A DNA stretch of 64,000 nt from Minwuiaceae bacterium (lineage in GTDB: Bacteria; Pseudomonadota; Alphaproteobacteria; Minwuiales; Minwuiaceae), in assembly GCA_028278525.1 (NCBI GenBank), contig JANQEE010000045.1:62001-126000 (forward strand), read 5' to 3'. Below are positions 35,787-52,123 of this stretch, piece after piece (the stretch's first letter is position 1; every line of letters starts with the position of its first letter). Below the pieces are notes generated by a model, which saw only the letters and a list, made by a program, of their open reading frames with translations, was not told the DNA's origin and did no database searches. The position numbers were made by a program, and so were the translations under genes.

Positions 35787-36254
35787 ATGCTGCTAAACAA
35801 CCCTGGCCAACTGACCGAGCGGCTGAAGCCCGGCGCCCGCCTGCTGGGACTGGACGTCGGCTCCAAGACCATCGGCCTGGCCTTGAGCGACGGCACACTG
35901 ACCATCGCCAGCCCCTACGACACGATCCGCCGCAGGAAGTTCAGCACCGACGTGGAGATCCTGCGCCAAGCAATTGAAAAGGAAGGCGTCGGCGGCCTGG
36001 TGATCGGCCTGCCGGTGAACATGGACGGCACGGAAGGCCCGCGCTGCCAGTCGACCCGGCAGTTCCAGAAAAACCTGGACCAGCAGATCGACCTGCCGAT
36101 GGCGTTCTGGGACGAGCGGCTCTCGACCGCGGCGGTCGAGCGGGTGCTGATCGACGACGCAGACCTGAGCCGCAAACGGCGGGCGGAAGTGGTCGACAAG
36201 ATGGCCGCCGCCTACATCCTGCAGGGCGCGCTGGACCGGATTAAGGCGGGGTGA
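35787..36254 (+). CDS. ruvX: Putative pre-16S rRNA nuclease / Holliday junction resolvase-like RuvX (YqgF)
   Basis: A 155-residue RNase H-fold protein of the YqgF family, acting in 5' end processing of 16S rRNA. The catalytic Asp is in LLGLDVGSKTIGLALSD (about residues 19-35), followed by GLVIGLPVNMDG, and the last acidic motif KMAAAYILQGALD near the C-terminus. I chose ATG at 35787 (MLLNNPGQL); upstream ATGs add residues without homology. Its last 120 bases (36135-36254) recur, diverged, at 43942-44052 and 51991-52123. The downstream gene pyrB, often next in related genomes, is absent here; module A follows instead. Confidence 0.94.
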   Translation: MLLNNPGQLTERLKPGARLLGLDVGSKTIGLALSDGTLTIASPYDTIRRRKFSTDVEILRQAIEKEGVGGLVIGLPVNMDGTEGPRCQSTRQFQKNLDQQIDLPMAFWDERLSTAAVERVLIDDADLSRKRRAEVVDKMAAAYILQGALDRIKAG

Positions 36255-36267
36255 GCCGGCCGGCGCG

Positions 36268-37557
36268 TCACCGCATCAAGCCGGGCAGGAACAGGGCGAT
36301 GTCCGGGAGCAGTGTCAGGACGACGATTCCACCGAGCATCACGAACCAGAAGGGCAGCGCCGCCGTCGCCGCCTCGGCGAGGCTCACCTCTCCGCGGGTG
36401 ATGCCGGTCAGGACATAGAGGTTCACGCCGACGGGCGGCGTGAGCATGCCGATCTCGATGCAGACCGTGATGATGACGCCGAGCCAGACCGGATCGAAGC
36501 CGAAGCCGACCATCACCGGAAACATGATCGGCACGGTCATCAGCAACAAAGAAAGGCCATCGAAGAAGCAGCCGAGCACGAGGTAGACGGCGACCATGCC
36601 GGCCAGCACCGCATAACGCGACAGCTCCATCCCGGCGAGACCGGCCATGATGTCGCGCGGCAGACCGAGCGCGCTGATCGCCTGCGCCAGGATAAGGGCG
36701 CCGACGCCGACGAACAGGACCGCGCCGAAGGTCGTCGTCGCCTTGAAAAAGGCCTCGACCAACCGGTCCCGGGTGAGGTCGCCCCAGGTGAACCCGATGA
36801 GGATCGCGGCCGCGACGCCGAGGCCTGCGGCCTCCGTCGGCGTGGCCAGCCCGAGATAGATCGTGCCCAGGACCGCGAAGATCAGAATGAGCAGCGGCCA
36901 AATGCCGAGCATCCGCCGCAGCACGACGGGCCAGGTCTCGACCGGCTCGTCCGCCGGCGCCAAGTCGCCGCGCCTGCGCGCCGCGACGGCGATGACGACG
37001 AGAAAGGCGGCCGCAAGCATCAGCCCGGGCCCGATCCCGGCGAGGAAGAGCTGCCCGATCGATACGCCCTGCGTCGCACCGTAGAGCAGCAGCGAAAGAC
37101 TGGGCGGGATCAAAAGACCGAGCGTGCCGCCGGCCGCCAGGGTGCCGACGACGAACGGCCTGTCGTAACCTCTCCGCCGAAGCTCCGGGTAGGCGACGGA
37201 GCCGACGGCGGCGGCGGTCGAGGTGCTGGCGCCGCTGACCGCGCCGAACACGGTGCACACGGCGATGTTGGTATGCAGAAGCTTGCCCGGCACCCGGCGG
37301 AACAGCGGCGTGAGCGCGTTGTAGACCCGCGTGCTGACGCCGCTGATCAGCATGATCTCGCCCATCAGGATATAGAGCGGGACGGCGCTGAGCGTGAACT
37401 CGTTGAACACGTTCCAGACCGCGGTGAAGGCCAGCTCCGTGGCGCCGCCGAGAAAGATGTGCAGGATCGCAAAGCCGGTGAGCGCGAGGCCGACGCCGAG
37501 CGGAGCACCGGTCAGCCCGGTGACGATCAGCCCAGCCGCAAAGACGAGCCAGACCAT
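36268..37557 (-). CDS. dctM: TRAP transporter large membrane subunit (DctM)
   Basis: A 429-residue inner-membrane protein with about twelve hydrophobic segments, the energised channel of a tripartite ATP-independent periplasmic importer. Typical features are GLALTGFAILHIFLGG, SGVSTRVYNAL, GSVAYPELRRRGYD, GGTLGLLIPPSL and, near the C-terminus, GMLTPPVGVNLYVLTG. Its ATG shares a base with the dctQ stop (TAATG), so both are made together. It is the last gene of module A, ending 14 bases before the ruvX stop on the opposite strand. Confidence 0.94.
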   Translation of the reverse strand: MVWLVFAAGLIVTGLTGAPLGVGLALTGFAILHIFLGGATELAFTAVWNVFNEFTLSAVPLYILMGEIMLISGVSTRVYNALTPLFRRVPGKLLHTNIAVCTVFGAVSGASTSTAAAVGSVAYPELRRRGYDRPFVVGTLAAGGTLGLLIPPSLSLLLYGATQGVSIGQLFLAGIGPGLMLAAAFLVVIAVAARRRGDLAPADEPVETWPVVLRRMLGIWPLLILIFAVLGTIYLGLATPTEAAGLGVAAAILIGFTWGDLTRDRLVEAFFKATTTFGAVLFVGVGALILAQAISALGLPRDIMAGLAGMELSRYAVLAGMVAVYLVLGCFFDGLSLLLMTVPIMFPVMVGFGFDPVWLGVIITVCIEIGMLTPPVGVNLYVLTGITRGEVSLAEAATAALPFWFVMLGGIVVLTLLPDIALFLPGLMR

Positions 37558-38060
37558 TACGCGATCGGATCCGACGGTCCGGGTTCATCCGCCTCCGCCC
37601 GGTCCGTTCCCGCCACCTGCCGGACGGCGACGAGCGTCGCCCAGCCGACGGCAAGGACGATGACGCCAACCCAGGGAAACAGCGGGATATCGCCGATGTA
37701 GGTAACCGAGCGGCGTTGGTAGGCGTAGGCCATGTAGTCGTAAGCCTCGAGGCCGAACGCGACGCCGAAGACAATCGTCAAGACCGACGCGGAGAGCCGC
37801 TGCAGCCGGGTCACGCGCGGGCCGAACCGCGCGGTGAGGATGTCGACCTTGATGTGCCGGTTACCGAACTGGACACCCGGAAGAACGAGGAAGACCATGG
37901 CACAGAACAGCAGCCCGACGAGTTCTTCCGTAAAGTGAAACGGCGCGCCGACGGCATAGCGCATCACGGAACTCAACACGACGAAGCCGGCCATGACGGC
38001 CATCAGGAGCACGGCCAGACAGGTCGACAGCCGGCAGACCTTTTCCAACACTCGGGTCAT
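37557..38060 (-). CDS. dctQ: TRAP transporter small membrane subunit (DctQ)
   Basis: A 167-residue inner-membrane protein with four hydrophobic segments, the small subunit that pairs with DctM. The family motif ELVGLLFCAMVFLVLPGVQF with RHIKVDILT lies near the middle. I chose ATG at 38060, behind the strong AAGGGAGGGGG site. A gap of 124 bases separates it from dctP. Confidence 0.9.
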   Translation of the reverse strand: MTRVLEKVCRLSTCLAVLLMAVMAGFVVLSSVMRYAVGAPFHFTEELVGLLFCAMVFLVLPGVQFGNRHIKVDILTARFGPRVTRLQRLSASVLTIVFGVAFGLEAYDYMAYAYQRRSVTYIGDIPLFPWVGVIVLAVGWATLVAVRQVAGTDRAEADEPGPSDPIA

Positions 38061-38184
38061 GGCGACCCCCTCCCTTCCCCGCATTCGATGGCGCGCTGCA
38101 CCGCGCGTCTTATCGAGACAACGGCGGTGCGGACGTTCGGGACGCCACGGAGAGCGGGTCCCGAACGCCGCGCCAATGCCGCCG

Positions 38185-39219
38185 CTATTGCAGGCCTATC
38201 GCCTTCGACACCAGGTTGTAGTCCGCGAGCGCCCGACCGCCCATCTTCTCGGCCTTGCCTTTCCAGACGGCGCGCGCGGCCGACGCGAAAGCCTGACGGT
38301 CGACGTCGCTGTAGTCCGGCATCAGGTTGGCGTCGTCGCCCAGCTTCGCCTCCGCCTCAGCGTCGTACTTCGCAGCCGCATAGGCCTTGAAGCTTCGCGC
38401 GGTGGCTTCGTCCGCCGCCTGCTTCAACGCGCTCTTATGCGCGTCCGACAGAGCCGCGTAGGCCGACCGGGAGACGATGATGTTGAGCGGATGCAGGACA
38501 AAGGGGAAAAGATAGCTGCCGTTCGGCGCGACCTCCTGCAACGAGATCGTCGACACGTACGCCGCGGGATAGACGGCGCAGTCGACCACGCCCGTGCTCA
38601 TCGCCACGTAAAGGTCGTTTTGACCGATGACCTGGGCGGCGACGTCCAGTTTCTCGAAGGTCTCGATCTGGAACGGCTCCCAGACGCGGACCTTCTTCGC
38701 CTTCAAGTCGGCCAGGGAGTTGATGGGATCGCGGCAGAAGATATGCGTCTTGGCGGCCGCGTGACCGATGAAACCCACGAGATCGATTCCCGCCTCGTCA
38801 TAGGTTCGCCGGTAGATCTGCTTCAGCGTCGGCAACAGCTCACCGACGACGGACGGCGTGCTGACCACGCCCGGCGGCAGGGTCAGGGCGTATTCCGGCG
38901 CTTCGCGCGCCAGATAGCCGGGATACATCAGGGCCGCCTGAACCACATTGCCGCGGGGCAGCGTCCTGAGCAGGTCGACATCCTTGATGCCGAGCGACCC
39001 GCCCGCGTAGAGCTCGATGGTGAAGGAGCCGCCGGTCAGTTCCCCGACCCGATCGGCGAACCACTTGGTGTCCTGGATCTCGATGCGCGTGTCGACCGCG
39101 GCGGCGTGCATCTTCCATTTCACGTCCGCCGCCAGCGCGGGTCCGGTGGCGATGGCCACGGCCGCCGCCGCAAATAACCCCGTCGTCCACAACTTTCTTC
39201 GGTTAAGCCACGTTCTCAT
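38185..39219 (-). CDS. dctP: TRAP transporter periplasmic substrate-binding protein (DctP)
   Basis: A 344-residue periplasmic receptor. A Sec signal peptide (MRTWLNRRKLWTTGLFAAAA then cleavage near GPALAADVKW) precedes the mature protein. DctP features include WFADRVGELTGGSFTIELY near residue 55 and the strand LADLKAKKVRVW, plus GVVDCAVYP. ATG 39219 sits behind GAGGAGG, two bases after the hyuB stop. Adjacent hydantoinase genes suggest that it binds a cyclic amide/imide or related carboxylate; the ligand is unknown. Confidence 0.92.
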   Translation of the reverse strand: MRTWLNRRKLWTTGLFAAAAVAIATGPALAADVKWKMHAAAVDTRIEIQDTKWFADRVGELTGGSFTIELYAGGSLGIKDVDLLRTLPRGNVVQAALMYPGYLAREAPEYALTLPPGVVSTPSVVGELLPTLKQIYRRTYDEAGIDLVGFIGHAAAKTHIFCRDPINSLADLKAKKVRVWEPFQIETFEKLDVAAQVIGQNDLYVAMSTGVVDCAVYPAAYVSTISLQEVAPNGSYLFPFVLHPLNIIVSRSAYAALSDAHKSALKQAADEATARSFKAYAAAKYDAEAEAKLGDDANLMPDYSDVDRQAFASAARAVWKGKAEKMGGRALADYNLVSKAIGLQ

Positions 39220-39220
39220 A

Positions 39221-40960
39221 TCAGCCTCCTCTGTCATCTTCTGAGCGAGATGGTTCTTTCCTGGTGGTGCCGCCGCCGCGGTAGAGCGCCGCGGCGGCGC
39301 TTTCGGATACCTTTTCGTCGGCCCGGTCGAGCGCCAAATCGGCGCGCGGGCGCCCGCCGGGATCGCCGTACCCGCCGCCGCCGGCGGTCTCGACAATCAG
39401 CCGGTCGCCGGCGACCAAGTCGGTGACGATCTTCGACGGGACCTCCTCCGTCACGCCGGACCGTCGGTGAATGACGCTGCGGGCGCAGGCGCCCGGCAGG
39501 CCGCCGGCGTACCCCTGGGCGGGATGGAAATGCCGTTCGCCCCGATGGGTCAGCGTCATGCTTCCCTCGAGAAGCTCGAACTCCTTGATCAGCCCGAGGC
39601 CACCGCGCTGGCGTCCCGGGCCGCCGGAATCCGGTTTGAGCGCCGAACGCAGGACGCGAATCGGCGCACCGAGTTCCAAGGTCTCAATCGGGATGTTCGT
39701 GCAGTTCGTGTTGTCGGTTTCGATGACGTCGACGCCGTCGGTCCGCACGCCGGCACCGCTGCCGCCGACGAGAAGCTCTCCGGTGATGTAGCGGGTACGA
39801 TCGTCGCGCAGTCCGGCGAAGATCAGAAGCAGGAGCTGGCCGGCCGAGTCGGCGGGAATGCGGTCCGGCAGCGCATCCCGAAAAGCGCCGAGGATGGCGC
39901 CGGCGATCCGCTTGATGGCGGCCGACCGTGAATTGACCGGCGCCGGTTCGACCGGATTGACGAACGTCCCGCGCGGAAGATGGATCGATATCGGGCGGAA
40001 GCAGCCGCCATTCGACGGTATCTCCGGCCCCGCGATGGCGCGAAGCGCGAAATAGACGCCGGATTGCGACGCCGAAGGCACACAGTTGAGGGGCCCGGTC
40101 AATTGCCTGTCGGTGCCGTCGAAATCGACGTGGACCTCATCGTCCGAAACGTCGATCCGAACCTGAATCCGGACGCGGCGGTCGAGCTCGATCCCGTCAT
40201 TGTCGAAGTGGTCGGTATATCGGTAGGTGCCGTTCGGAATCGCCCGGAACGACTCACGGGTCATGCGTTCCGAGCGGTCCAGGAGGTCATCGAAGATTTG
40301 CTGCAGGTGGTCGGCGTCGAAATCCTCGGCCAGCGCCCGGAGACGGCGCGCGCCGACGGTGCAGGACGCGATCTGGGCGTTGAGGTCGCCCATCAACATG
40401 TCCGGGAAACGGACGTTCTGGCGAATGATCCGGACGAGGGTCTCGTTCTCGACGCCGGCGTCCCTGAGCTTGACCGGCGGGATCCGCAAGCCCTCCTGGT
40501 AGATGTCGGTGGCATTCGTCGGCAGCGAGCCCGGCACCATGCCGCCGAGGTCCTGATGGTGCGTGATCGTGCAGCTCACCGCGATGGGCCGCCCGCCGTG
40601 GAACACGGGAACGGCCATGGCGATGTCCGGTATGTGCGTGCCGCCGAGATAGGGGTCGTTCATGATGTAGATGTCGCCTTCCCTGGCGGCGGCGAGCGGA
40701 AAGGCGTCGAGCAACGCCCGGACGCAGGGGATCGACGCGGACAGGTGACCCGGCACCGACAGCGACAAAGAGAGAACCTCTCCTCCGGTCGTGAACAGGC
40801 TTGCCGCGGCGTCGAATCCCTCCTTCACGAGCGGGGAGAACGACGAGCGAATAAGCTTCAACTGCATCTCGTTCGAGATGCCGTCGAGCTTGTTGCGAAC
40901 CACTTCCACGGTGACGGGGTCGAGCCGCCGATCCGGGCTCATGGCGGGTACGATGTTCAT
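39221..40960 (-). CDS. hyuB: Hydantoinase B/oxoprolinase family protein (HyuB)
   Basis: A 579-residue subunit of an ATP-dependent hydantoinase/oxoprolinase-type enzyme. The N-terminus DPVTVEVVRNKLDGISNEM, the FDAAASLFTTGGEVLS segment, IMNDPYLGGTHIPDI and the GGGGYGDP C-terminal motif are classic for this family. It works with HyuA to open a five-membered ring (hydantoin, 5-oxoproline) or related acetone/acetophenone carboxylation. It starts three bases after hyuA and ends two bases before dctP, so they are one transcript. Confidence 0.94.
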   Translation of the reverse strand: MNIVPAMSPDRRLDPVTVEVVRNKLDGISNEMQLKLIRSSFSPLVKEGFDAAASLFTTGGEVLSLSLSVPGHLSASIPCVRALLDAFPLAAAREGDIYIMNDPYLGGTHIPDIAMAVPVFHGGRPIAVSCTITHHQDLGGMVPGSLPTNATDIYQEGLRIPPVKLRDAGVENETLVRIIRQNVRFPDMLMGDLNAQIASCTVGARRLRALAEDFDADHLQQIFDDLLDRSERMTRESFRAIPNGTYRYTDHFDNDGIELDRRVRIQVRIDVSDDEVHVDFDGTDRQLTGPLNCVPSASQSGVYFALRAIAGPEIPSNGGCFRPISIHLPRGTFVNPVEPAPVNSRSAAIKRIAGAILGAFRDALPDRIPADSAGQLLLLIFAGLRDDRTRYITGELLVGGSGAGVRTDGVDVIETDNTNCTNIPIETLELGAPIRVLRSALKPDSGGPGRQRGGLGLIKEFELLEGSMTLTHRGERHFHPAQGYAGGLPGACARSVIHRRSGVTEEVPSKIVTDLVAGDRLIVETAGGGGYGDPGGRPRADLALDRADEKVSESAAAALYRGGGTTRKEPSRSEDDRGG

Positions 40961-40963
40961 GGC

Positions 40964-43027
40964 TCAGCGATCCGGCAACCGGGCAAGCAGAAGGTTGCCG
41001 CCTTGGTCTACCGCGAACGACCAGGCCGGCGGAACGAGGACCGTCGTGTCTTTCTGTTCGATGACGACCGGCCCGTCGGCCGCGTATCCGGCCGGCAAGG
41101 CGTCGCGCCGCAGCACCGTCGCCAGCATCCTGCCCACGCCGGGAAGAACGACCTCCCGTCCCGCGGCGCCGTCGACGGCAAACGCCGACGGAAGGTCGAT
41201 CCTCGGCGTTCGAGCCGTCACATATGCTTGGCGGACCACACGAAGATTGACCACACGAACCGGGCCGTCATTGCTCTGTCCGAAAACGCGGTCGTGCGTT
41301 TCATGGAACGCCTGCCGAAGCGAGCCGAGCGGATCGGCGTGGTCCAGATCGACCGGCACTTCGAGATGAAACGATTGCCCGTCGTAGCAGAGATCGGCAA
41401 AGCGCTGGAGATCACTATCGCCGAGTTCCTGCCCGTCCGCCCGGGCGGCCTCGATGCAGTCGGCATCCAGTGCAGCGAAGGCATCGGCGAGCGCTTTCGG
41501 GTCGAGCGCCTCGAGGGCTTGCAGCAACGGCCTGGAAAACTCGTGCTCGACGGCGGCAGAGAGCAGGCCGTCGGCAGCCAGGACACCCGGATGATGCGGA
41601 ACCAGGATGCGCCCGATGCCGAGCTGGTCGGCCAGAGCCGTGGCGTGCAGGCCGCCGGCACCGCCCATCGGGACCAGGGCAAAAGCCCGGGGATCGAAAC
41701 CCTGCTTAATGGAAACGAAGCGAACGCCTTCGGCCATCTGGCCGTTGAGCACCCTGTGAATGCCTAGCGCCGCCTCTTCGACGGTCACGCCAAGCGGTCG
41801 GGCGATCTTCTCCTCAACAACCTGGAACGACAGCCGTGGATCGAGCACGAGGCTGCCGCCCGCGAAGTAATCCGGATTTAGGTAGCCAAGCACGATCGAG
41901 GCGTCCGTAACCGTGGCTTCCGCGCCACCCCGGCCGTAGCAGGCCGGTCCCGGCATCGACCCGGCAGACTGGGGCCCGACCTTCAGCCCACCGGCGCTGT
42001 CTATCCACGCGATGCTGCCGCCGCCGGCGCCAATGGCATTGACGTCGACCATGGAGACCCGCACCGGATAACCGGCGACGTCGCCTTCCGGCCGGGTAAT
42101 CGCCTTCCCATCCGCAATCAGGGCGATGTCGCAGCTGGTGCCGCCGATATCGACCGTGATGACGTTGCGATGCCCGCCTGCTTCCGCCGTGGTTTTGCCG
42201 CCAACGATGCCGCCGGCAGGCCCGGAGAGCGTCAACCGTACGGGTCGGCGGCGGGCGCTCTGCACCGAGGCGATACCGCCGCGGGACTGCATGACCTGCA
42301 ACGGGGCACGAATGGCCTTGTCGCGAAGGCCGGCCTCCAGATTGCGGAGGTAGGTGTCGACGACCGGCTTTACATAAGCGTCGAAGGCGGTGGCTACGGT
42401 TCGCTCGTACTCGCGTTCCGCGGGGTCGACCTCGCTTGAAATCGAAACGGCAAGCCCCGGCGCCATCTCGCGAATAATGTCTCGGGTGCGCCGTTCGTGG
42501 CCCGGCATGCGGAACGAGAAGAGGTAGGAAACCGCGATAGCCTCGACATCCCGGCTCAGGAGATCCTGCACCGCGGCGCGAACGGTCGCTTCTTCGAGCG
42601 GAACCAGCACCGTTCCGTCGGCACCGACACGCTCGATCACTTCCTTGCGGAAGCGACGAGGCGCCAGGTACGTCGGCGTCTCCTGCCCGAGTATCAGATC
42701 GTAAAGGCCGCTCCGCATCTGACGGCCGATCTCGAGGATGTCCCTGAACCCCTTGGTCGTCAGCAGACCGAGGCGGGCGCCCTTACGCTCAATAATCGCG
42801 TTGGTGGCGACAGTTGTCCCATGCACGAAACGCGTGATTTCAGCGGGATCGATACGACATTCGGACACGAGCCTATCGACCGCCGTCAGAACGGCGCGGC
42901 TGGGATCGTCAGGCGTGCTCGGCACCTTGGCGAGAAAAGAGAAACCGTCGGGCCCTCGGCAAACCATATCGGTGAAGGTGCCGCCCGTATCGATGCCGAT
43001 CTCAAATCGTGGTGGGTGTGCATTCAT
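40964..43027 (-). CDS. hyuA: Hydantoinase A/oxoprolinase family protein (HyuA)
   Basis: A 687-residue ASKHA-fold subunit. The N-terminal FEIGIDTGGTFTDMVCR phosphate loop, VHGTTVATNAIIERKGARLG, the central TLSGPAGGIVGGK and VDIGGTSCDIALI loops, and GAGGGSIAW are intact, so ATP binding is expected. Together with HyuB it should hydrolyse a cyclic amide in an ATP-dependent way. Transcription appears to start upstream of the TetR gene 54 bases away. Confidence 0.95.
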   Translation of the reverse strand: MNAHPPRFEIGIDTGGTFTDMVCRGPDGFSFLAKVPSTPDDPSRAVLTAVDRLVSECRIDPAEITRFVHGTTVATNAIIERKGARLGLLTTKGFRDILEIGRQMRSGLYDLILGQETPTYLAPRRFRKEVIERVGADGTVLVPLEEATVRAAVQDLLSRDVEAIAVSYLFSFRMPGHERRTRDIIREMAPGLAVSISSEVDPAEREYERTVATAFDAYVKPVVDTYLRNLEAGLRDKAIRAPLQVMQSRGGIASVQSARRRPVRLTLSGPAGGIVGGKTTAEAGGHRNVITVDIGGTSCDIALIADGKAITRPEGDVAGYPVRVSMVDVNAIGAGGGSIAWIDSAGGLKVGPQSAGSMPGPACYGRGGAEATVTDASIVLGYLNPDYFAGGSLVLDPRLSFQVVEEKIARPLGVTVEEAALGIHRVLNGQMAEGVRFVSIKQGFDPRAFALVPMGGAGGLHATALADQLGIGRILVPHHPGVLAADGLLSAAVEHEFSRPLLQALEALDPKALADAFAALDADCIEAARADGQELGDSDLQRFADLCYDGQSFHLEVPVDLDHADPLGSLRQAFHETHDRVFGQSNDGPVRVVNLRVVRQAYVTARTPRIDLPSAFAVDGAAGREVVLPGVGRMLATVLRRDALPAGYAADGPVVIEQKDTTVLVPPAWSFAVDQGGNLLLARLPDR

Positions 43028-43081
43028 GGTCGGATGTCGCGTCGCCCGCCGTTCGGGGCTCCCTCTCCTTTGCCGTGACGC

Positions 43082-43753
43082 CTAGTGCCGTGGCGGTTCG
43101 GCCCGCGCACCCGAACGCAGAGCATCGACGACAAAGGTCTTGAGCAGCGCACGCTGCCGGGCGAAGAAGGCTTCGTCCTTCTCGAACACGCTGTAGAAAG
43201 CGAAGCCGCGCAGCATGGCCAACGTCGTATGCATCACGTCGACGACAACCTGCTCGGAGGCGGCGTCGTCCCTGAAGAAGGACCACCAGAGGTCGGCGAA
43301 GATCCTGAGCGACCGGGAACGATGGGCGACCGCCTCCTCGCGCAGATGCGGCTCGGCGCGGGTGCCGAGAAACAACTCCCAAACGGCGACGTAGCGCGGA
43401 CTGCAATAGACGTCCCACAATCGGGCGACGAGGGTCTCGACCCGGCTTTCGAGGGCCTCGCCCCTCCCGGGATCCATGCTCATCTGCGTCGTCAATTCGA
43501 GCAGCAGCTGATCGAAAGTCTCCATCAGCAGCTCGTCCTTCGAGCCGAAATGATGCTGCATGGCGCCGAGCGAAACGCCCGCGCGCCGGGCGATCCGGGT
43601 CGTCGTCGCGTTAGCGTAGCCGCCTTCGGCAAGCAGGCCGATGGTCGCTTCGATGAGCGCGTTGCGCGTCTCGGCGCGGCGCTCTTCCTGTGTCCGGCGT
43701 CGGGGCTTGTTCGGATGTGCAGGCGCGTTCGCGGCCACAGGTTCATTGTCCAT
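43082..43753 (-). CDS. TetR-family transcriptional regulator
   Basis: A 223-residue regulator. The N-terminal TetR helix-turn-helix is clear: RNALIEATIGLLAEGGYANA, TRIARRAGVSLGAMQHHF and KDELLMETFDQLL (residues about 28-82). The C-terminal ligand domain is helical and typical for the family. It is the first gene of the module A transcript, so it probably represses its own operon; an AT-rich imperfect inverted repeat at 43781-43804 is a candidate operator. Confidence 0.93.
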   Translation of the reverse strand: MDNEPVAANAPAHPNKPRRRTQEERRAETRNALIEATIGLLAEGGYANATTTRIARRAGVSLGAMQHHFGSKDELLMETFDQLLLELTTQMSMDPGRGEALESRVETLVARLWDVYCSPRYVAVWELFLGTRAEPHLREEAVAHRSRSLRIFADLWWSFFRDDAASEQVVVDVMHTTLAMLRGFAFYSVFEKDEAFFARQRALLKTFVVDALRSGARAEPPRH

Positions 43754-43780
43754 CAGCGTATCCCTTTCTCATATATAACA

Positions 43781-43804: not shown

Positions 43805-43941
43805 CAAGATAATTCGCTGAATGAAATCTCGGGATACCGCCAAGGCTGGCCGGCACGGTTCGGTACGTCATGGAGATCAAGAATTCCGAAAGCCTGAATC
43901 CGCCCGGTTAAGTCACCTTGGATGCTCCAAGATGAGCGACG

Positions 43942-44052
43942 GTCGAGCGGGTGCCGATCGACGACGCGGACCTGAGCCGCAAGCGGCGCGCCGAAGTCGT
44001 CGACAAGATGCCGGCGGCCTACATCCTGCTGGACGGGATTAAGGCGGGGTGA
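43942..44052 (+). pseudogene. Detached 3' end of ruvX (copy 2)
   Basis: The 111 bases translate, in the ruvX frame, as VERVPIDDADLSRKRRAEVV then DKMPAAYILLDGIKAG and a TGA stop, matching the last 40 codons of intact ruvX with a three-codon deletion (9 bases) and scattered substitutions. There is no start or catalytic N-terminus. Upstream homology fades within about 10-20 bases. It lies exactly at the boundary between module A (TetR side) and module B (decarboxylase end), in the same orientation as intact ruvX. Confidence 0.93.
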
Positions 44053-44054: not shown

Positions 44055-45326
44055 TCAGCTGCCGTAGCTCGCCTGTCCCCTGCTTCTCGCCAGCTTTCCC
44101 GCTCTGGCCTCGGCGATCGTCGCCTCGAGATCGGCGGCGAATGGATCGACGATTGCGCCGTGGCGGAAGTTTAGAAGCAGGTTCATGCCGGCCGGGTCGA
44201 CCAGGGGCCCGAACCGCCAGCCCTTCGCCGTCATCCCGTCGCGGACCGCGGCCATGTCCGGCACCCCGTCACCGCCGATGCCGAGAATGCCGGCCATCGG
44301 CCGGCCGAGAACGCGAACACCGTCAATACGGTCGACCTCGGCCGTCAAAAGACGCCTGACCTTCAGGATCGTTTCGACGCGGTCGCGGTAGCCCTCGTAG
44401 CCCAGGTAGTTCATCACGGCCCAGGCGGAGGCAACGGCACCGCCCGGCCGCGAGCCCGCGATCGTCATCGTGGTGAACGCGCCGGTCGGCCAATCGTCGA
44501 ACGAGAACCTCTGGAAGTCGCCGAGCGCCCGGTCACGGACCAGTAGTAGCGATGCACCGCGGCTGACGTAGCCGTATTTGTGCAGGTCGACCGACATCGA
44601 GGTAACGCCAGCCAGCGAAAAGTCGAAATCCGGAACCGGCTCGCCAAGGTCGCGCGCGAAAGGCAGAAAGAATCCGCCGACACAGGCATCGACGTGGAGC
44701 CAGAGGCGATGCCGGGCCGCCAAGGCCGCCAGTTCGGCAACCGGATCGACGGAGCCGACCGGATAAGGCGGCGCAGAGCCGACGATCATGACGGTGTTGT
44801 CGTTGATCGCGGCGGCCATCACCGACGGGTCCGCGCGGAAATCCCGGTCGGTCGGCACGCGCACGACCCGCAGGCCGAGCATGTCCGCGGCCTTGTTGAA
44901 GGCAGCATGACCGGTTCGCGCGACCACGATCTCGCCGGGGCCGGTCATCGGCCGCATGGCGCGCGCCTGGTCGCGGGCGGCCTTTACAGCCAGGATGATG
45001 CTTTCGGTTCCGCCCGACGTCATCGTGCCGCCGGCGGCGTCCGGCGCATTCAGCAGTTCGAGCACCATGCCGACGACCTTGTCGGCCATGGCAGGCAGGC
45101 TGGGATAGAGAAGATTGCCGTAGAGAAGGTTGTCCCCGCGGAAAAGCGTGTAGGCCTCCCACGCCACGCGCGCGACGTCCTCGCCCGCATCGTAAGCGGC
45201 CTTGAGATTGCTCAGGTCGTTCCACTCGAGATCGCCAGCACGACGCCGTTGCAACTCGTCCCGCAGATCCGGCCAGGCACGTCCCTGCCGGGCGAACTTC
45301 CGGTTACTCCCCGCGTTGTCCCCCAC
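44055..45326 (-). CDS. PLP-dependent decarboxylase/lyase (group II, sphingosine-phosphate-lyase-like)
   Basis: A 423-residue fold-type I PLP enzyme. The substrate/cofactor region is GGTMTSGGTESIILAVKAAR (residues 99-118), HVDACVGGFF (Asp 213) pairs with the pyridine nitrogen and the Schiff-base lysine is in SVDLHKYGYV (Lys 250). This order fits the aromatic/glutamate decarboxylase-sphingosine phosphate lyase group (also MfnA-like). It would decarboxylate an amino acid or split a phospho-amino alcohol. It ends two bases after the ruvX fragment, on the opposite strand, and is divergent from the ABC importer operon. Confidence 0.92.
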   Translation of the reverse strand: MGDNAGSNRKFARQGRAWPDLRDELQRRRAGDLEWNDLSNLKAAYDAGEDVARVAWEAYTLFRGDNLLYGNLLYPSLPAMADKVVGMVLELLNAPDAAGGTMTSGGTESIILAVKAARDQARAMRPMTGPGEIVVARTGHAAFNKAADMLGLRVVRVPTDRDFRADPSVMAAAINDNTVMIVGSAPPYPVGSVDPVAELAALAARHRLWLHVDACVGGFFLPFARDLGEPVPDFDFSLAGVTSMSVDLHKYGYVSRGASLLLVRDRALGDFQRFSFDDWPTGAFTTMTIAGSRPGGAVASAWAVMNYLGYEGYRDRVETILKVRRLLTAEVDRIDGVRVLGRPMAGILGIGGDGVPDMAAVRDGMTAKGWRFGPLVDPAGMNLLLNFRHGAIVDPFAADLEATIAEARAGKLARSRGQASYGS

Positions 45327-45630
45327 TGTGTCATCTCCCGGCTAACGGCAATCGGTCCTGCGCCTCGGACGGCGTCTCCGTAATTTTGTTATATCAAATA
45401 TAATTGGCTGTCAATGTGGAGGATAACGCCGATAGGACCGGATAGCCAATCGAGTATTCGGCTTTATATATGAATTTAGGCGACCATTGCGATACGGCTG
45501 TAATTTGATTCAAATTTTGCTATAACAAATTTGTTGCCGCAAAATGGGGCGCGTGCTAGTGAATCGGCGATGCCAAGCAACAACGCCACGCATAAGCACG
45601 GCGGATTAAGGGAGCAAACGCGGGAGAGAC
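45327..45630. promoter_or_regulatory. Divergent promoter region with two matching operator-like boxes
   Basis: This AT-rich region separates the decarboxylase gene (minus) from the ABC operon (plus). TTTGTTATATCAAA (45385-45398) and TTTGCTATAACAAA (45516-45529) are 14-base near-palindromes; the reverse complement of the first matches the second at 13 of 14 positions. A related TTTGATTCAAA sits at 45504-45514. One box flanks each gene, as expected for a regulator controlling both directions, possibly the module's GntR protein. Confidence 0.55.
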
Positions 45631-46827
45631 ATGCCGAACAGTCAGCCACTATCGGCAATCGAGACCGCCGGCCCGGAAGCCACGTCGGACCAGCGGGACG
45701 ATGCGCGACCGTCGACAGGCGTAGGCGCCCCCGTCGAGATCCGCGGCCTGTCGAAGCATTTCGGCCGCGTCGTCGCAATCGATGACGTTTCGTTAGACAT
45801 AAATCCGGGCGAGTTCGTCGCCCTGCTCGGGCCAAGCGGGTCGGGCAAGACCACGATATTGATGTCCATCGCCGGCTTCGAGCAACCGACCTCGGGCCGG
45901 ATACGCGTCGCCGGCCGCGACGTCGTACCGCTGCCGGCGAACAAACGAAATATCGGCATGGTGTTCCAGAAGTATGCGCTGTTTCCGCATCTTTCAGTCG
46001 CCGATAACATCTCCTTTCCCCTGGAAATGCGCGGCTGGGCCAAAAGCCGGCGTGCGGAAGCCGTACAACGCGCGCTGGAGACCGTGCGTCTGGAAGGCTA
46101 CGCGGAACGGATGCCGTCCCAGCTCTCCGGCGGTCAGCAGCAGAGGGTCGCGCTGGCCCGCGCCATCGTTTTCGAGCCGCCCGTGCTGTTGATGGACGAG
46201 CCGCTCGGCGCACTCGACAAGAAGCTTCGCGAAGAGCTGCAGCTCGAGATCAAGCGCCTGCAACAGCGACTCGGCATCACCGTGCTGTTCGTAACCCACG
46301 ACCAGGGCGAGGCGCTCGCCATGGCCGACCGCGTGGCCGTCATGAACCAAGGCCGCATCGAGCAGATCGACACGCCACAGGTCCTGTACAACGAGCCGGA
46401 GACGCTGTTCGTCGCGGATTTCGTCGGCGACTCGAACCTCCTGACAGGCGTCATGGCCGATGCCGGCCCGCCGGGCCTCGGGCGTCTGCGACTGACCGCC
46501 GGCGATTGCGTGTCGGGTCGCGTGGCGACGAGCGGCGACGGGAATCCGGCGGCGGGCCGGCCGGCGACGCTGATGGTTCGCCCGGAGAACGTGAGGCTCC
46601 GCCCCGCCGAAACATGGGGGACGAGCGATGGGCCGACCGGCACAGTGCGCGACATCGTCTTCGGCGGCGCAACGAACATGTTCGTGGTGGAGCTTCACGG
46701 TGGGGAACTGCGCGCCCAAATTCCGGCGGGCCCGGGCGGCAACGGCCGGATCGGCGTCGGCGACCGCGTCGAGATTTCGTGGGACGACCGCAACGCCATG
46801 ATTTTCCCGGCCGAGCGGAGCACCTGA
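45631..46827 (+). CDS. ABC importer ATP-binding protein (spermidine/putrescine PotA type)
   Basis: A 398-residue ATPase of the polyamine/opine/phosphonate importer class. Walker A is GPSGSGKTT, the signature LSGGQQQRVALARAI and Walker B LLMDEPLGALD, with the PotA-like KNIGMVFQ-type Q-loop (RNIGMVFQKYALFPHLSV). A C-terminal TOBE domain begins after about residue 280. It starts the four-gene importer operon, with a 3-base gap to the first permease. Confidence 0.94.
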   Translation: MPNSQPLSAIETAGPEATSDQRDDARPSTGVGAPVEIRGLSKHFGRVVAIDDVSLDINPGEFVALLGPSGSGKTTILMSIAGFEQPTSGRIRVAGRDVVPLPANKRNIGMVFQKYALFPHLSVADNISFPLEMRGWAKSRRAEAVQRALETVRLEGYAERMPSQLSGGQQQRVALARAIVFEPPVLLMDEPLGALDKKLREELQLEIKRLQQRLGITVLFVTHDQGEALAMADRVAVMNQGRIEQIDTPQVLYNEPETLFVADFVGDSNLLTGVMADAGPPGLGRLRLTAGDCVSGRVATSGDGNPAAGRPATLMVRPENVRLRPAETWGTSDGPTGTVRDIVFGGATNMFVVELHGGELRAQIPAGPGGNGRIGVGDRVEISWDDRNAMIFPAERST

Positions 46828-46830
46828 TCG

Positions 46831-47742
46831 ATGACCGCCGTCACGGTCGGCAGGACGAAAACCGCTTCCGGAAGCGGCCGGTTCGCCGTGCGGTCGTCGG
46901 GGCGCGAGCTGTCGCCGACAATCAGCTGGCTGATCCTTCTGCCGACCCTGGTCCTGTTTGCCTTCGTCTTCGTCGCACCCGTATTGGGCCTGGTCAAGAC
47001 GAGCCTGTTCGATCCGGACTTCACGTTCCGCCACTACCGCCTGCTGTTCACCGAGGAACTGTTTATCCGGATCATCTGGCGCACGCTTTGGATAAGCGCC
47101 CTAGTCGCGCTGCTCACGCTCCTGCTCGGCTATCCGGTGGCGCTTCTGATGGCGCGGCTCAAGGGCTATGGCGCGCTGATCATCGCCGGCTGCGTCCTGC
47201 TGCCGCTTTGGATCAGCGTCCTTGTCCGCAGCTACGCCTGGGTGGTGCTGTTGGCGAAGAACGGCGTCGTTACGGCGACGTTGCGCGACCTCGGGCTGAT
47301 CGGCGAGAGCACCCGTTTCATGTATACGGACGGCGCCGTAATCGTGGCCATGACCCATGTGCTGCTGCCGTTCATGGTCCTGCCGCTTTACGCCAGCCTG
47401 AACGCCATCTCGGACGACCTGGTGCGGGCGGCGAGAGGATTGGGCGCGAGCGACCTGCGCGCGTTCTTCAGGGTGACCTTGCCGCTCAGCCTGCCCGGCG
47501 TCACTTCCGGCGTGATCCTGGTTTTCGTCATCTCGCTCGGCTTCTTCGTTACCCCTGCCCTGGTCGGCGGCCCGAAGTCGATGATGGCAGCGATGCTGAT
47601 CGGTCAGGAAGCGTCCTACGGCGGCAATTGGGGGCTGGCCGCCGCTCTGTCTGCGGTCCTGTTCATCGGCGCGCTTGCGATCGTCGCGATGTTCGGCCGT
47701 TTCATCCGCCTGGACGGCAGCGCGGCGGGGGGCGGCCGATGA
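46831..47742 (+). CDS. ABC importer permease (PotB type)
   Basis: A 303-residue inner-membrane protein with about six transmembrane segments after a long polar N-terminus (about 35 residues). The EAA loop reads LVRAARGLGASDLRAFFRVT, the contact site for the ATPase. It overlaps the next permease gene by four bases (ATGA). Together they form a polyamine-type transmembrane channel. Confidence 0.93.
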   Translation: MTAVTVGRTKTASGSGRFAVRSSGRELSPTISWLILLPTLVLFAFVFVAPVLGLVKTSLFDPDFTFRHYRLLFTEELFIRIIWRTLWISALVALLTLLLGYPVALLMARLKGYGALIIAGCVLLPLWISVLVRSYAWVVLLAKNGVVTATLRDLGLIGESTRFMYTDGAVIVAMTHVLLPFMVLPLYASLNAISDDLVRAARGLGASDLRAFFRVTLPLSLPGVTSGVILVFVISLGFFVTPALVGGPKSMMAAMLIGQEASYGGNWGLAAALSAVLFIGALAIVAMFGRFIRLDGSAAGGGR

Positions 47743-48566
47743 CTGCGCGGACGGCATATGGGCGAATCGGTCCGGGCGGCGCCCTGGTCATGGCCTTCGC
47801 CTATGCGGTGATCGCTTTCCTGGTGCTGCCGGTCCTGCTGGTCGTGCCGATGAGCTTTTCCGACACCGCCTATCTGTCGTTCCCGCCGCAAGGCTTCACG
47901 CTGAAATGGTACGTCGAGATCTTCACGGAACCGATGTGGATCCGGCCGACGCTGTTCAGCCTGGAGATCGCGCTGCTGGTTTCGGCCTTGTCATCCGTGC
48001 TCGGCACGGCGGCGGCGCTCGCACTGGTGCGCGGTCGGTTTCGCGGCAAGACGGCGGTGCGGCTGCTGATCATCTCACCGATCATCGCGCCGAACGTCGT
48101 TGTCGCGATCGCGATGTTCTTCGCCTTTGTCGAAGTGGGACTGATCGGCAACCTGGGCGCGTTCGTCATGGGCCACTCGGTCCTGAGTATCCCATTCGTA
48201 ATGTTGACCGTATCGGCGGCGTTGCATCGCTTCGACCCGGACCTGGAGCTTGCCGCGATGAACCTGGGAGCGAACCGCTGGACGGCCTTCCGGCGGGTAA
48301 CGCTGCCGATCATCATGCCCGGCGTCGCCAGCGGCGCGATCTTCTCGTTCATCATTTCGTTCGACGAGCCGGTGATCAGCTACTTCGTGTCGAGCGTCCG
48401 ACAAGCGACGCTGCCGCGAATCATGTTCCAGAACATAGAGACAAGCGTGCAGCCCAACGTGGCGGCGATCTCGACGGTGCTGATGCTGTTGTCGGTGCTG
48501 TTGCTGTCGCTGACCTGGCTGTTGCGCCGCGGACAGGCGCAACGCCTGCCGGAAACGTCTCCATGA
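47739..48566 (+). CDS. ABC importer permease (PotC type)
   Basis: A 275-residue inner-membrane protein with about six hydrophobic segments and the EAA loop LELAAMNLGANRWTAFRRVT. ATG at 47739 overlaps the upstream permease stop codon. The open frame extends further upstream in the same frame but within the preceding gene, without homology. Its likely ribosome site is inside that gene, giving coupled translation. Confidence 0.93.
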   Translation: MTARTAYGRIGPGGALVMAFAYAVIAFLVLPVLLVVPMSFSDTAYLSFPPQGFTLKWYVEIFTEPMWIRPTLFSLEIALLVSALSSVLGTAAALALVRGRFRGKTAVRLLIISPIIAPNVVVAIAMFFAFVEVGLIGNLGAFVMGHSVLSIPFVMLTVSAALHRFDPDLELAAMNLGANRWTAFRRVTLPIIMPGVASGAIFSFIISFDEPVISYFVSSVRQATLPRIMFQNIETSVQPNVAAISTVLMLLSVLLLSLTWLLRRGQAQRLPETSP

Positions 48567-48627
48567 AAGGAAGACAAGGCCTGAATGCGGTTGAAGTCGG
48601 CCGCGATAGAACCAAAGGGAGGAAAAA

Positions 48628-49683
48628 ATGGCCAATTTACGAAGACTAGCCGCGGTCCTGTGCAGCGCCGGCGTCCTGATCAGCGGGGTTGCCGCGACCT
48701 CCGCTGCCGAGGAACTCGTCGTCGTCTCGACCGGCGGCAGCTTCGGGGCGGCACTGAAGAAGATTTTCTTCGATCCGTTCACCGCGGAGACGGGAATCGA
48801 GATCATCCACGTTCCGGCCACGGTCCAGCAGCAAAACGGCAAACTGCGGGCCATGCTGAAGGCGGACAACGTCGAATACGATGTGCTGACCACCACAGAC
48901 GACGCGGTGATCGGCGACGCCGAGGTTTACCAGGAGCTCGACTGCGCCAAAGTCCCGAATGCGGCCCAATATGGCGTACCAGGCACATGCAGCGGCCGCA
49001 GCCTTCTGCGCACGGCCGGCGCCAGCATGCTGGTTTACAAAACCGATGCTTTCCCGGCCGGCGGCCCTCGGACCTGGTCGGATTTCTGGAATATCGAGAG
49101 ATTTCCCGGCGCCCGTTGCCTGATCGGCGGGACAACAGAGAACCATATTCCGCTGCTCGCCGCACTGTCGGCAGACGGCGTGCCGCCCGAGGAGCTTTTC
49201 CCAATCGACATGGACCGGGCGGTTCGCAAACTGGAGGAGTTGAAACCGCACGTGGCGGCCTATTGGAGCAGCTATTCCCAAAGCCAGCAGTTGCTGCGCG
49301 ACGGCGAGTGCGTCGCGTCGATCATGACCAACGGCCGGGCGATGTCGCTGAGGAACGAGGGCTTTCCGCTGACCCTGGTTTGGCAGGGAGCGTTCAGCAA
49401 CTCGGCGGGCTGGGGGATCGCTGCGAAGGCGCCGAACCGGGAGGCGGCATACAAATTTCTGGATTACTGGATGAAACGGCCGGAGGCACATCTGGCGTTC
49501 TACAGGAAATTCTTCTATGGCACCGCCAACCGGGATGTCCTTAAGCTGCTCAGCGCCGAGGAGCAGGCAGACTACTACGCGCATCCGGAAAACTTCGTCG
49601 GCCAGATTGCGCTGGACACGAAGTGGATCGGCGAGAATCTCGATACGATCCGGCGCCGCTACGCGGACTTCCTGTCTCGGTAG
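48628..49683 (+). CDS. ABC importer periplasmic substrate-binding protein (PotD-like)
   Basis: A 351-residue solute receptor with a Sec signal peptide (MANLRRLAAVLCSAGVLISG, cleaved after an ATSAA-type site near residue 27). The mature N-terminus LVVVSTGGSFGAALKKIF and later FLDYWMKRPEAHLAFYR are typical for the spermidine/putrescine or opine receptor group. A good GGGAGG-type site lies just upstream of the ATG. The presence of an amidase and a PLP decarboxylase in the same module suggests an amide or amine ligand. Confidence 0.92.
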   Translation: MANLRRLAAVLCSAGVLISGVAATSAAEELVVVSTGGSFGAALKKIFFDPFTAETGIEIIHVPATVQQQNGKLRAMLKADNVEYDVLTTTDDAVIGDAEVYQELDCAKVPNAAQYGVPGTCSGRSLLRTAGASMLVYKTDAFPAGGPRTWSDFWNIERFPGARCLIGGTTENHIPLLAALSADGVPPEELFPIDMDRAVRKLEELKPHVAAYWSSYSQSQQLLRDGECVASIMTNGRAMSLRNEGFPLTLVWQGAFSNSAGWGIAAKAPNREAAYKFLDYWMKRPEAHLAFYRKFFYGTANRDVLKLLSAEEQADYYAHPENFVGQIALDTKWIGENLDTIRRRYADFLSR

Positions 49684-49714
49684 CGCGGGATGCGGCAAGA
49701 TCGACTTGTCTATC

Positions 49715-49743
49715 GGGCACGCCGACGCCGCGTCGGCGTGCCC
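49715..49743 (+). terminator. Strong hairpin after the ABC importer operon
   Basis: A perfect 13-bp stem with three-base loop: GGGCACGCCGACG (49715-49727), CCG, then CGTCGGCGTGCCC (49731-49743). Only GGCCCTT follows, so the T-run is weak. It lies between the receptor gene and the GntR gene and probably ends or attenuates the importer transcript. Confidence 0.6.
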
Positions 49744-49785
49744 GGCCCTTAAACAATGTGACCGTCAAGCGTTTGGATTGAAGCT

Positions 49786-50490
49786 ATGGACGATGTTCTG
49801 ACCGCACCCGAGCTGCAGCCACTGACAGACAAAAAGACCCTGACCGAGCGCGTCTATCGTCAACTGAAGCGCGCCCTCAAGTCAGGCTCGTTCGAGCCGG
49901 GCCAGAGAATCACCAACCGGGCCGTGGCCGGCGCCCTGGATGTCAGCATGACGCCGGCCCGCGAAGCGCTTTGGCGGCTGGTTGCGGAAGGCGCTTTGGA
50001 TGTCGTCGGCCCGAAGACCATCATCGTGCCCGTCCTGTCGCCGAAGCGGTACGACGAGATAATCGGGATTCGGCTGGCGCTCGAAGGCATGGCGGCCGAG
50101 GCGGCCGCCGGGAATGCCGACATCGCCTTTATCGAGGAACTGGAAGCGATCCAGGTGGCTTTCGCGTCCCTCCGCACGAAGCGGGACTATCGCGCGGCGC
50201 TGGAGATGAACGAGAGATTTCATTTCACCCTGTATGAAAGAGCCGACCAGCCAAGGCTGCTGGCCATGATCGAGAGCCTATGGGTATCGTTCGGTCCGTC
50301 CCTGCGCCTGCTCTACCCGCGATTCGAGCGACGCGAAGACGGCGTCCGGCCCCACCAGGACGTGATCCGAGGGCTCCGGGCCGGCGATGCCCAGAGGGTC
50401 AGGGCGGCGATCGAGGAAGACCTCAGAGTCGGTCGAGACAAGATCATTCCGATGTTGGCGGCACGCGGCGGCGGTCGGCAAGGCAAGTAA
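49786..50490 (+). CDS. GntR-family regulator with FCD ligand domain
   Basis: A 234-residue regulator. The winged helix-turn-helix (about residues 18-80) has TERVYRQLKRALKSGSF and SMTPAREALWRLVAEGAL. The C-terminal FCD domain (about 90-225) is alpha-helical with histidines near FHFTLYERAD and RPHQDVIRGL that can bind a metal and carboxylate effector. It sits inside module B, between the importer and the amidase, so it is the likely specific regulator; candidate operators lie at 45385 and 45516. Confidence 0.93.
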   Translation: MDDVLTAPELQPLTDKKTLTERVYRQLKRALKSGSFEPGQRITNRAVAGALDVSMTPAREALWRLVAEGALDVVGPKTIIVPVLSPKRYDEIIGIRLALEGMAAEAAAGNADIAFIEELEAIQVAFASLRTKRDYRAALEMNERFHFTLYERADQPRLLAMIESLWVSFGPSLRLLYPRFERREDGVRPHQDVIRGLRAGDAQRVRAAIEEDLRVGRDKIIPMLAARGGGRQGK

Positions 50491-50517
50491 CCGCGCCACC
50501 GACAAAGAGATACCCGC

Positions 50518-51960
50518 ATGTCCGACGAACTGGCCCTGCTTTCCGCAACCGAATTGCTGCGGCACTATCGCAACAAGACCGCCTCCCCAGTCGAGGCGAC
50601 CAAAGCGGCGCTCGACCGCATCGACAAGTACGATCAGGCGTTGAACGCGTTCCGTTTTGTGGCCCATGACGATGCCCTGGCCGCCGCCAAGGACGCCGAG
50701 GCGCGATGGATGCGCGGCGAACCGCAAGGCCTTGTCGACGGCGTGCCGACGACGATCAAAGACAGCCATCCCGTCAAAGGATGGTCCACCCTGCACGGCT
50801 CCCGCACCGTCTCCGAGCCAGGCCCCGAGGCGGCGGACGCCCCGCATGTCGCCCGCCTGCGCGAGCATGGCGCCGTCTTCCTGGGCAAGACCACGCTTTG
50901 CGAATTCGGCTGGAAATGCGTGACCGACAGTCCTTTGACCGGCATCAGCCGCAACCCGTGGGACCCGGCGAAAACCTGCGGCGGCAGCAGCGGCGGCGCC
51001 GCGATTGCCGCCGCGACCGGCATGGGCGCCCTGCATCTCGGCGGCGACGGCGGCGGATCGATCAGGGCGCCGGCGGCCTTGTGCGGTCTGTTCGGCATCA
51101 AGGCCACTTACGGCCGCGTACCGCGATATCCTGCCGAATCCTTCATCGCCTGTGCCCATTTCGGCCCTCTGACCAGAACCGTCGGCGACGCCGCCCTCGC
51201 CATGACGGTCATCACCGAACCCGACTATCGCGACGCCTTTGCGTTGGCTTACGACAACCGCGACTATCGCGTTGGACTGAGCGACGGGGTGAAGGGTCTT
51301 CGCATCGGCTATAGCGCGGACCTCGGACATGCGGCGGTCGATCCGGAAGTCGCGGCAATCGTCGCCAACGCCGTCGCCGTATTCGAGGAACTTGGCGCGA
51401 CCGTCGAGGCGGTCGATCCCGGTCTCGGCAATACCTTCGAGGCTTACAAAGTCATGAACGCCGCCTATCAGGTGCCCAAGATCCGGGACAAGGCCGAAGA
51501 GCAGATCGCCGTGATGGATCCGACCCTGGTCGCAAACGCCCGGTTCGGCGAGACCCTGTCGGCGTTCGACCTGCTGGAAGCCGGCAAGGTTCGAGCGGAT
51601 ATGGCGTTCAAGATGGCCGAATTCCATCAGACCTACGATCTCCTTATCACGCCGACGCTGCCGGTCGCCGCTTTTGACGCGGGCCACAACAATCCGCCCG
51701 CGTTGGAAGAGGCAGCCAGCGCCGAGGACAGCCTGTTTTGCCTGTTCAACAATTTTCTGTATCAGGTCAACTACACGCATCAGCCCGCGGCGAGCGTGCC
51801 CTGCGGTTTCACCGACGCCGGGCTACCTGTCGGTTTCCAGATCATTGGTCCGCGTTTCTCGGACCAACAGGTTTTGTCGGCCGGTCAGGCGTTCGAGGCA
51901 GTGCATCCGTTCACGATGCCAAGCGCCGGGCAACTGCCCTGCCTGGACGAGGCCGACTGA
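50518..51960 (+). CDS. Amidase (amidase-signature family)
   Basis: A 480-residue amidase. The Ser-cisSer-Lys triad is visible: TTIKDSHPV (Lys about 80), CGGSSGGAAIAAATGMGAL (Ser about 156) and LGGDGGGSIRAPAA (Ser about 180). This family hydrolyses aryl/alkyl amides to acids. It is 27 bases downstream of the GntR gene and shares orientation with the importer, so it may process an imported amide, feeding the decarboxylase. It is the last gene of module B. Confidence 0.92.
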   Translation: MSDELALLSATELLRHYRNKTASPVEATKAALDRIDKYDQALNAFRFVAHDDALAAAKDAEARWMRGEPQGLVDGVPTTIKDSHPVKGWSTLHGSRTVSEPGPEAADAPHVARLREHGAVFLGKTTLCEFGWKCVTDSPLTGISRNPWDPAKTCGGSSGGAAIAAATGMGALHLGGDGGGSIRAPAALCGLFGIKATYGRVPRYPAESFIACAHFGPLTRTVGDAALAMTVITEPDYRDAFALAYDNRDYRVGLSDGVKGLRIGYSADLGHAAVDPEVAAIVANAVAVFEELGATVEAVDPGLGNTFEAYKVMNAAYQVPKIRDKAEEQIAVMDPTLVANARFGETLSAFDLLEAGKVRADMAFKMAEFHQTYDLLITPTLPVAAFDAGHNNPPALEEAASAEDSLFCLFNNFLYQVNYTHQPAASVPCGFTDAGLPVGFQIIGPRFSDQQVLSAGQAFEAVHPFTMPSAGQLPCLDEAD

Positions 51961-51990
51961 CGCGAAGCGACCGTTCCCAGTTCGGCTAAG

Positions 51991-52123
51991 GCGACGGCCG
52001 CCCGTGCAGCGGCTGTTGATCGGCGACGCGGACCTAAGCCGCAAACGGCGGGCGCAAGTCGTCGACAAGATGGCCGCCGCCTACATCCTGCGGGGCGCGC
52101 TGGACCGGATGAAGGCGGGATGA
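51991..52123 (+). pseudogene. Detached 3' end of ruvX (copy 3)
   Basis: From 52004 the frame reads VQRLLIGDADLSRKRRAQVV then DKMAAAYILRGALDRMKAG and TGA, matching the last 40 ruvX codons with no deletion. A few codons more (S-T-A-A) can be matched upstream to about 51991 after one extra base. It lies directly after the amidase of module B and 12 bases before a tRNA 3' fragment. No start or catalytic N-terminus is present. Confidence 0.94.

Follow-up and report, generated by a model that had tools for sequence, protein, structure and literature searches.

The window analyzed here comprises 64,000 nucleotides of contig C17 (JANQEE010000045.1) of a Minwuiaceae bacterium. It contains an intact ruvX gene, which is followed by a row of displaced copies of its own 3' end ("tails"), with gene clusters between them. 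We propose that the stretch from ruvX to pyrB is a hotspot of insertion and that homology-facilitated illegitimate recombination has enlarged it to 104 kb in this lineage, and assign to this reading a probability of about 0.5. The tails may still allow the order of arrival of the DNA to be read. The original prediction, made from the letters of the window, had assumed that one insertion after another took place at the ruvX 3' end and displaced the older tails, and this view is supported.

The ruvX gene (35787-36254, plus strand) codes for a protein of 155 amino acids (aa) from the RuvX/YqgF family (Pfam PF03652, E-value 4e-42), and its 3' end is copy 1 in the row. A repeat search and BLAST aligned copy 2 (43936-44052, plus strand) to ruvX positions 36129-36254 with 84% identity over 126 columns (E-value 2.5e-35), and copy 3 (52008-52123, plus strand) to positions 36139-36254 with 91% identity over 116 columns (E-value 2.2e-42). 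Thus, when the two tails were checked for being unrelated by alignment statistics, they proved to be related, as had been claimed. Both end in TGA, as ruvX does, and the predicted 9-base deletion in copy 2 is real and in frame. The left edge of copy 3 is uncertain and varies by method: 52008 with BLAST, 51993 with a profile, and 51914 with a gapped local alignment, which extends to ruvX position 36042. Beyond the window, 20.9 kb past its end on the same contig, there is a decayed copy 4 (C17:146908-146984, or 84908-84984 on the window scale). It is made of 31 bp with 97% identity and 52 bp with 83% identity, and about 55 bp are missing in between. Every displaced end shares the strand of ruvX and runs to its stop codon.

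When the last 155 bases of ruvX were searched against the whole genome (71 contigs, 5.95 Mb), there were five matches with an E-value of at most 0.001, all of them on C17. These are ruvX itself, copies 2 and 3, and two adjoining pieces of copy 4. Four ruvX ends mean at least three insertion events, so that the two events originally deduced from three tails are too few. Copies 1-3 are mutually 79-91% identical and directly oriented, with complete clusters between them. Judged by the repeat content of the contig, these tail repeats are far beyond chance, because the self-comparison of 184 kb of C17 gave hardly any other short repeats of such identity. Among its 15 matches with an E-value of at most 1e-8, those of up to 700 bp and at least 78% identity are the three pairings of copies 1-3, one 316-bp repeat and nothing else. 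A further candidate tail (124473-124557 on the window scale) was rejected as a chance match; it fuses two unrelated parts of ruvX, and its reading frame looks methyltransferase-like.

Between copies 1 and 2, seven of the ten changes fall on third codon positions (six synonymous and three nonsynonymous codons), and the frames of copies 2 and 3 remain open. The third-position bias together with the open frames suits tails that would have diverged while they were still functional 3' ends of ruvX in relatives of this strain.

The interval is bounded by conserved flanks, with gatBA/ruvX on one side and pyrB-pyrC-plsY-dprA-topA on the other. In Sinorhizobium meliloti, the order is gatB ... gatC / ruvX, AEC transporter, pyrB, pyrC, plsY, dprA, topA, and this chain recurs in related loci. 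The original prediction took pyrB to be near, which is incorrect: the gene, its identity confirmed by Pfam, is found at C17:202680, on the same strand as ruvX and 104 kb away on the same contig. For comparison, 144 alphaproteobacterial ruvX loci were fetched (136 distinct; usually 10-20 kb of DNA, median about 10 kb). The relatives compared all lie outside the genus of the window. In 86 distinct loci, pyrB is downstream on the same strand, at a distance of about 0 to 8.9 kb (median 1.4 kb), and the distance is at least 1.5 kb in 41 of these 86. Longer intervals would escape detection in fetched stretches of this length; in the other 50 distinct loci, pyrB is absent from the stretch or differently oriented. 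Two Hwanghaeella genomes have distances of about 10.0 and 14.8 kb. In genus g3, which belongs to the same family as the window, ruvX and pyrB are far apart in both single-contig genomes (G003, G005) and on separate contigs in the other five. It may be added that in two Azospirillum brasilense strains (L200, L201), the content diverges from about 1 kb behind ruvX; these loci are devoid of a displaced tail.

An independent case was encountered in Hwanghaeella grinnelliae. Each locus was searched at the DNA level with its own ruvX end, and a clear second tail was detected in only this one (L127) of the 144 loci. Its displaced tail covers the last 59 bases up to the stop (85% identity, E-value 4e-14) and is located 2.08 kb downstream. 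The insert of 2.1 kb has two open reading frames (ORFs), one encoding a methyltransferase and the other with no match in Pfam. The genome of a sister Hwanghaeella (L123) lacks the insert: the sequence at +3041 in H. grinnelliae starts at +38 behind the ruvX of the sister, so that the step before insertion is visible between the two genomes. The displaced tail has 93% identity to the ruvX of the sister over 44 bp. Three sites bring it nearer to the sister than the intact tail is, which is weak, and its first bases are less alike. No further ruvX tail was found in the whole H. grinnelliae genome (E-value of at most 0.01).

The next-best second matches in the 144 loci (E-value 2e-5 and weaker) occur on both strands and on both sides of ruvX and do not end properly at the stop; they look like background. 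A second tail match in L134 (30 bp, E-value 3e-4) lies inside overlapping ORFs and was taken as chance. Four genomes (G004, G024, G036, G051) have only weak second matches to the ruvX tail (E-values 2.5e-5 to 5e-4). With the 57-aa RuvX end as query, more than one protein match was obtained in a single one of 260 genomes with a match (289 searched), which is the genome of the window, and the full RuvX protein singled out the same genome among 91 with a match (96 searched). Such protein searches would overlook tails as short as that from Hwanghaeella. From these searches, long displaced ruvX tails are judged to be rare. RuvX homologs are present in 27 phage and 53 plasmid records. The 57-aa query had no relative in viral contigs (33 pattern matches, none confirmed), and four examined loci from the phage and plasmid records (L200-L203; Azospirillum twice, Tistrella, Sinorhizobium) have no second tail at an E-value of at most 0.001.

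Mechanical gene calling gave 92 genes for the whole interval, with 6, 7, 36 and 43 in the four gaps from ruvX to pyrB. The first two gaps measure 7.68 and 7.96 kb and hold one cluster each, in agreement with the predicted sizes of about 7.7 and 7.9 kb. Their strand pattern is also as predicted, with module A all on the minus strand and module B mostly on the plus strand. Module A (36268-43753) codes for a TRAP transporter (DctM, DctQ, DctP), HyuB and HyuA, and a TetR regulator (Pfam/NCBIfam). HyuA and HyuB are of the hydantoinase/oxoprolinase type; the nearest curated models are for caprolactamase, with scores far under the cut-offs. Module B (44055-51960) codes for a pyridoxal phosphate (PLP)-dependent decarboxylase on the minus strand, and for a polyamine-type ABC transporter, a GntR regulator and an amidase on the plus strand (Pfam/NCBIfam). 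Module C starts at 52187, runs beyond the window to copy 4 and fills a gap of 33 kb. Its left part (52187-64000) contains an AraC regulator, a PEP-CTERM protein, a transposase-core remnant (55297-55695; PF13683, 20.1 bits, below the cut-off of 26.5 bits), an amidohydrolase, ArsR, and cobW/hisI/folE-type genes. A group of genes extending over 59146-64000 and L007:1-7750 codes for DUF1826, an iron-type alcohol dehydrogenase, two CobW proteins, hisI-type and folE-type proteins, cysteinyl-tRNA synthetase, ZnuA with a transporter ATPase, and DUF1007. We take this group to be zinc-starvation genes. A peptide transporter and a dipeptidase are also encoded in gap C, where part of the 36 genes was scanned. 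Between copy 4 and pyrB, 14 of the 43 predicted genes were scanned with Pfam, and iron-uptake, efflux, redox and regulatory families are among them. The gene adjoining pyrB codes for a DUF2927 protein and is common to the pyrB neighborhoods of five g3 genomes; it is probably old at this place.

Behind copy 3, at a distance of 16 bases, there is a 3'-end fragment of a tRNA-Met (CAT) gene (52140-52170, plus strand; a 31-nt match with 94% identity), which is followed by an apparent hairpin and a T-run. The matching tRNA gene is located on contig C6. The fragment is possibly the edge of an island that was once seated in a tRNA gene. The sole tRNA gene in the examined 184 kb of C17 (ARAGORN) is a tRNA-Ser (21810-21902), which was ruled out as the source of the fragment. 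In 100 loci, the first 4 kb behind ruvX were free of tRNA genes, and Rfam gave a single match over 34000-64000, which is below its gathering score.

The modules would be ancestral at this place if relatives carried them here, and the interval was therefore compared with 160 fetched loci. No whole cluster recurs around ruvX or pyrB, while small gene pairs have distant counterparts. Some homolog (E-value of at most 1e-20 over at least half the length) is present for 17 of the 92 genes, most of which belong to widespread families, ABC ATPases and amidases among them. In one genome (G059), a Zur-like/cobW pair (48 and 70% identity) is found about 17 kb downstream of ruvX, beyond pyrB.

No match to Phage_integrase or Resolvase was found on C17 (there are four places and one place, respectively, elsewhere in the genome), which agrees with the absence of a nearby recombinase as originally stated. 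A phmmer search with the four integrases of the genome itself found none on C17; in the DNA fetched for the 144 loci it gave four candidates, all of them upstream and none downstream of ruvX. A perfect 9-bp inverted repeat with a spacer of 1 nt (36122-36140) is located inside ruvX at the start of the displaced tails; such inverted repeats are listed 18 times in the 184 kb, this one included. No common sequence was found between the module ends. Extension of the homology to the left of the tails lacks significance in copies 2 and 3 (409 and 973 of 1000 shuffles), and in copy 4 it is marginal (51 of 1000). A likeness to the right of the stops (copies 1/2 and 2/4) was discarded: it is significant against shuffles, yet does not exceed the 95% range obtained with random pairs of 300 bp taken from the contig.

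According to the reading that we prefer, DNA fragments of close relatives would bring the ruvX 3' end of the relative together with whatever followed it. On one side, homologous recombination would take place within ruvX, and on the other, a non-homologous join would form close to where the resident ruvX tail begins. Every event would rebuild ruvX with the incoming tail, add a module and shift the old tail one place outward. The identity of the donors, the anchoring by homology, the non-homologous join and the nearest tail being the youngest are what we infer in this scheme. We favor such one-sided homologous insertion over a lost or trans-acting recombinase, which is ranked second, because copies 1 and 2 show the third-position bias, no recombinase was found on C17, and the break in Hwanghaeella is elsewhere in the gene. 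A more far-reaching version is doubtful: ruvX would be the fixed anchor of a recombinase-free metabolic stack with the newest piece nearest to the gene, a short hot segment of ruvX (the inverted repeat) would serve as joining point, and the tails would permit module exchange between strains.

Several observations weigh against insertion by homology with incoming tails of relatives. Copies 1 and 3 lack a coding bias (5 of 11 differences at third positions; five synonymous and six nonsynonymous), so that the predicted origin of the incoming tails from other alleles is supported by the comparison of copies 1 and 2, but not by that of copies 1 and 3. The nearest tail, copy 2, is less similar to ruvX than copy 3. 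No ruvX tail was detected in the last 56 kb before pyrB. In G001, from the same family, hisI-like, Zur-like and transporter-ATPase genes (50, 43 and 35% identity) are found together 7-9 kb from ruvX on its gat side. The ATPase/permease pair of module B has counterparts (42-46%) in the g3 genomes G005 and G006, 14-18 kb upstream of pyrB, and the last two genes of gap C, an iron-transporter-like pair, have adjacent counterparts (46% and 38%) in a third g3 genome, G003, 8-11 kb upstream of pyrB. Because of such pairs near ruvX or pyrB, part of the cargo may be older in this neighborhood than the tail stack suggests; none of the counterparts, that in G059 included, is a whole module at the ruvX end. 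Finally, the BLAST starts of the three displaced tails correspond to ruvX positions 36117, 36129 and 36139, a span of about 23 bp (p of about 0.007 for three uniform draws over ruvX; this is post hoc, and the edge of copy 3 is fuzzy). Clustered starts and the inverted repeat, both noticed post hoc, would favor a specific site.

This last point leads to a possible but less probable scenario, in which a recombinase, since lost or acting in trans, recognized the inverted repeat at 36122-36140 and integrated three times, restoring ruvX each time. The tight starts around that repeat fit this, as do the anatomy of the displaced tails, which is that of integration at a gene 3' end, and the tRNA-Met fragment behind copy 3, given that a 3' tRNA fragment is a usual footprint of a tRNA-targeting island. 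Against it, no Phage_integrase or Resolvase was found on C17 and no integrase downstream of ruvX in what was fetched of the 144 loci, the module ends have no sequence in common, the 57-aa tail query had no relative in the viral contigs, and the break in Hwanghaeella is about 60 bp from the stop rather than at 116-138 bp as here. Of the originally proposed integration at a gene 3' end, the displaced tails and the intact gene are supported; its site-specific nature is doubtful, given that no recombinase was found, that the module ends are unlike, and that Hwanghaeella has a different break. It is improbable that, after one founding event, the tails of about 120 bp served as homology handles for RecA-dependent exchange, with modules being lost, circularized and swapped between strains. 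The identity and direct orientation of copies 1-3 around complete clusters and the open frames of copies 2 and 3 would be expected from it, but the sequences to the left of the tails have no common founder end, and short, diverged repeats like these should recombine poorly. Least probable is a local duplication, in which repeated copying of the ruvX end inside the genome would have been followed by the arrival of other genes between the copies. All copies in the genome are alike and on one contig, as this would have it, but the clusters between the tails did not turn up here in relatives, the differences between copies 1 and 2 are biased to third positions, and the sister Hwanghaeella lacks the insert.

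Two features elsewhere on the contig were noted. The 316-bp direct repeat (82% identity; 121312-121627 and 123911-124226 on the window scale, L192/L193) is situated between two neighboring genes, the first of which encodes a cyclase/AAA/TPR regulator of 1599 aa. Beside the tRNA-Ser gene, an ORF of 515 aa (22074-23621) has a low third-position GC content, an AT-rich upstream region and no Pfam match, and is a possible foreign insertion.

Each displaced gene end physically documents a single insertion event, whereas the entry of DNA into mobile-element-free hotspots is mostly inferred from statistics. At ruvX, such records are associated with a housekeeping anchor and metabolic cargo. If strains from the same genus show the individual steps, one-sided homology and a hidden recombinase become directly testable against each other. 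No paper describing ruvX or yqgF as an insertion site of this kind was found in the searches of open-licence literature.

Integrative elements are known from the 3' ends of protein-coding genes (SXT at prfC, SGI1 at trmE, and the dusA elements) and have an integrase gene of their own as well as a defined core site. As in these, the incoming tail at ruvX would restore the gene and the old tail, a displaced copy of the 3' end, is found at the far side, and tandem accretion is possible. Unlike these, the ruvX locus has no recombinase gene that was found within the element or elsewhere on C17. Chromosomal integrons are ordered stacks with the newest piece nearest to a fixed anchor. The ruvX stack would likewise be ordered at its anchor, but it consists of multi-gene modules, and there is no IntI-type integrase beside it, as no Phage_integrase was found on the contig. 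Transfer hotspots free of mobile elements are common (Oliveira et al. 2017, PMC5635113). They share with the ruvX locus the conserved core flanks that enclose variable cargo, and they lack a recombinase; at ruvX none was found on C17, where module C has the transposase-core remnant below the cut-off. A double crossover at both flanks should, however, leave no gene tails, while the ruvX locus has tails that record insertions. For the type VI effector-immunity arrays of Vibrio cholerae, successive module displacement was described and a mechanism akin to homology-facilitated illegitimate recombination was proposed (Kirchberger et al. 2017, PMC5361080). As at ruvX, modules enter beside a conserved anchor and push older pieces downstream, and no evidence for an integrase is reported. 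In V. cholerae, the module itself supplies the anchor with its conserved upstream part, and an immunity gene is what remains as the relic; at ruvX, the anchor is an unrelated housekeeping gene, which is restored, and the cargo consists of metabolic and transport clusters. Ordered relics of the anchor between acquired modules, as expected from sequential displacement, are present at ruvX. With no recombinase of an integrative element found on C17, the ruvX locus works like the V. cholerae arrays and is placed like the hotspots free of mobile elements.

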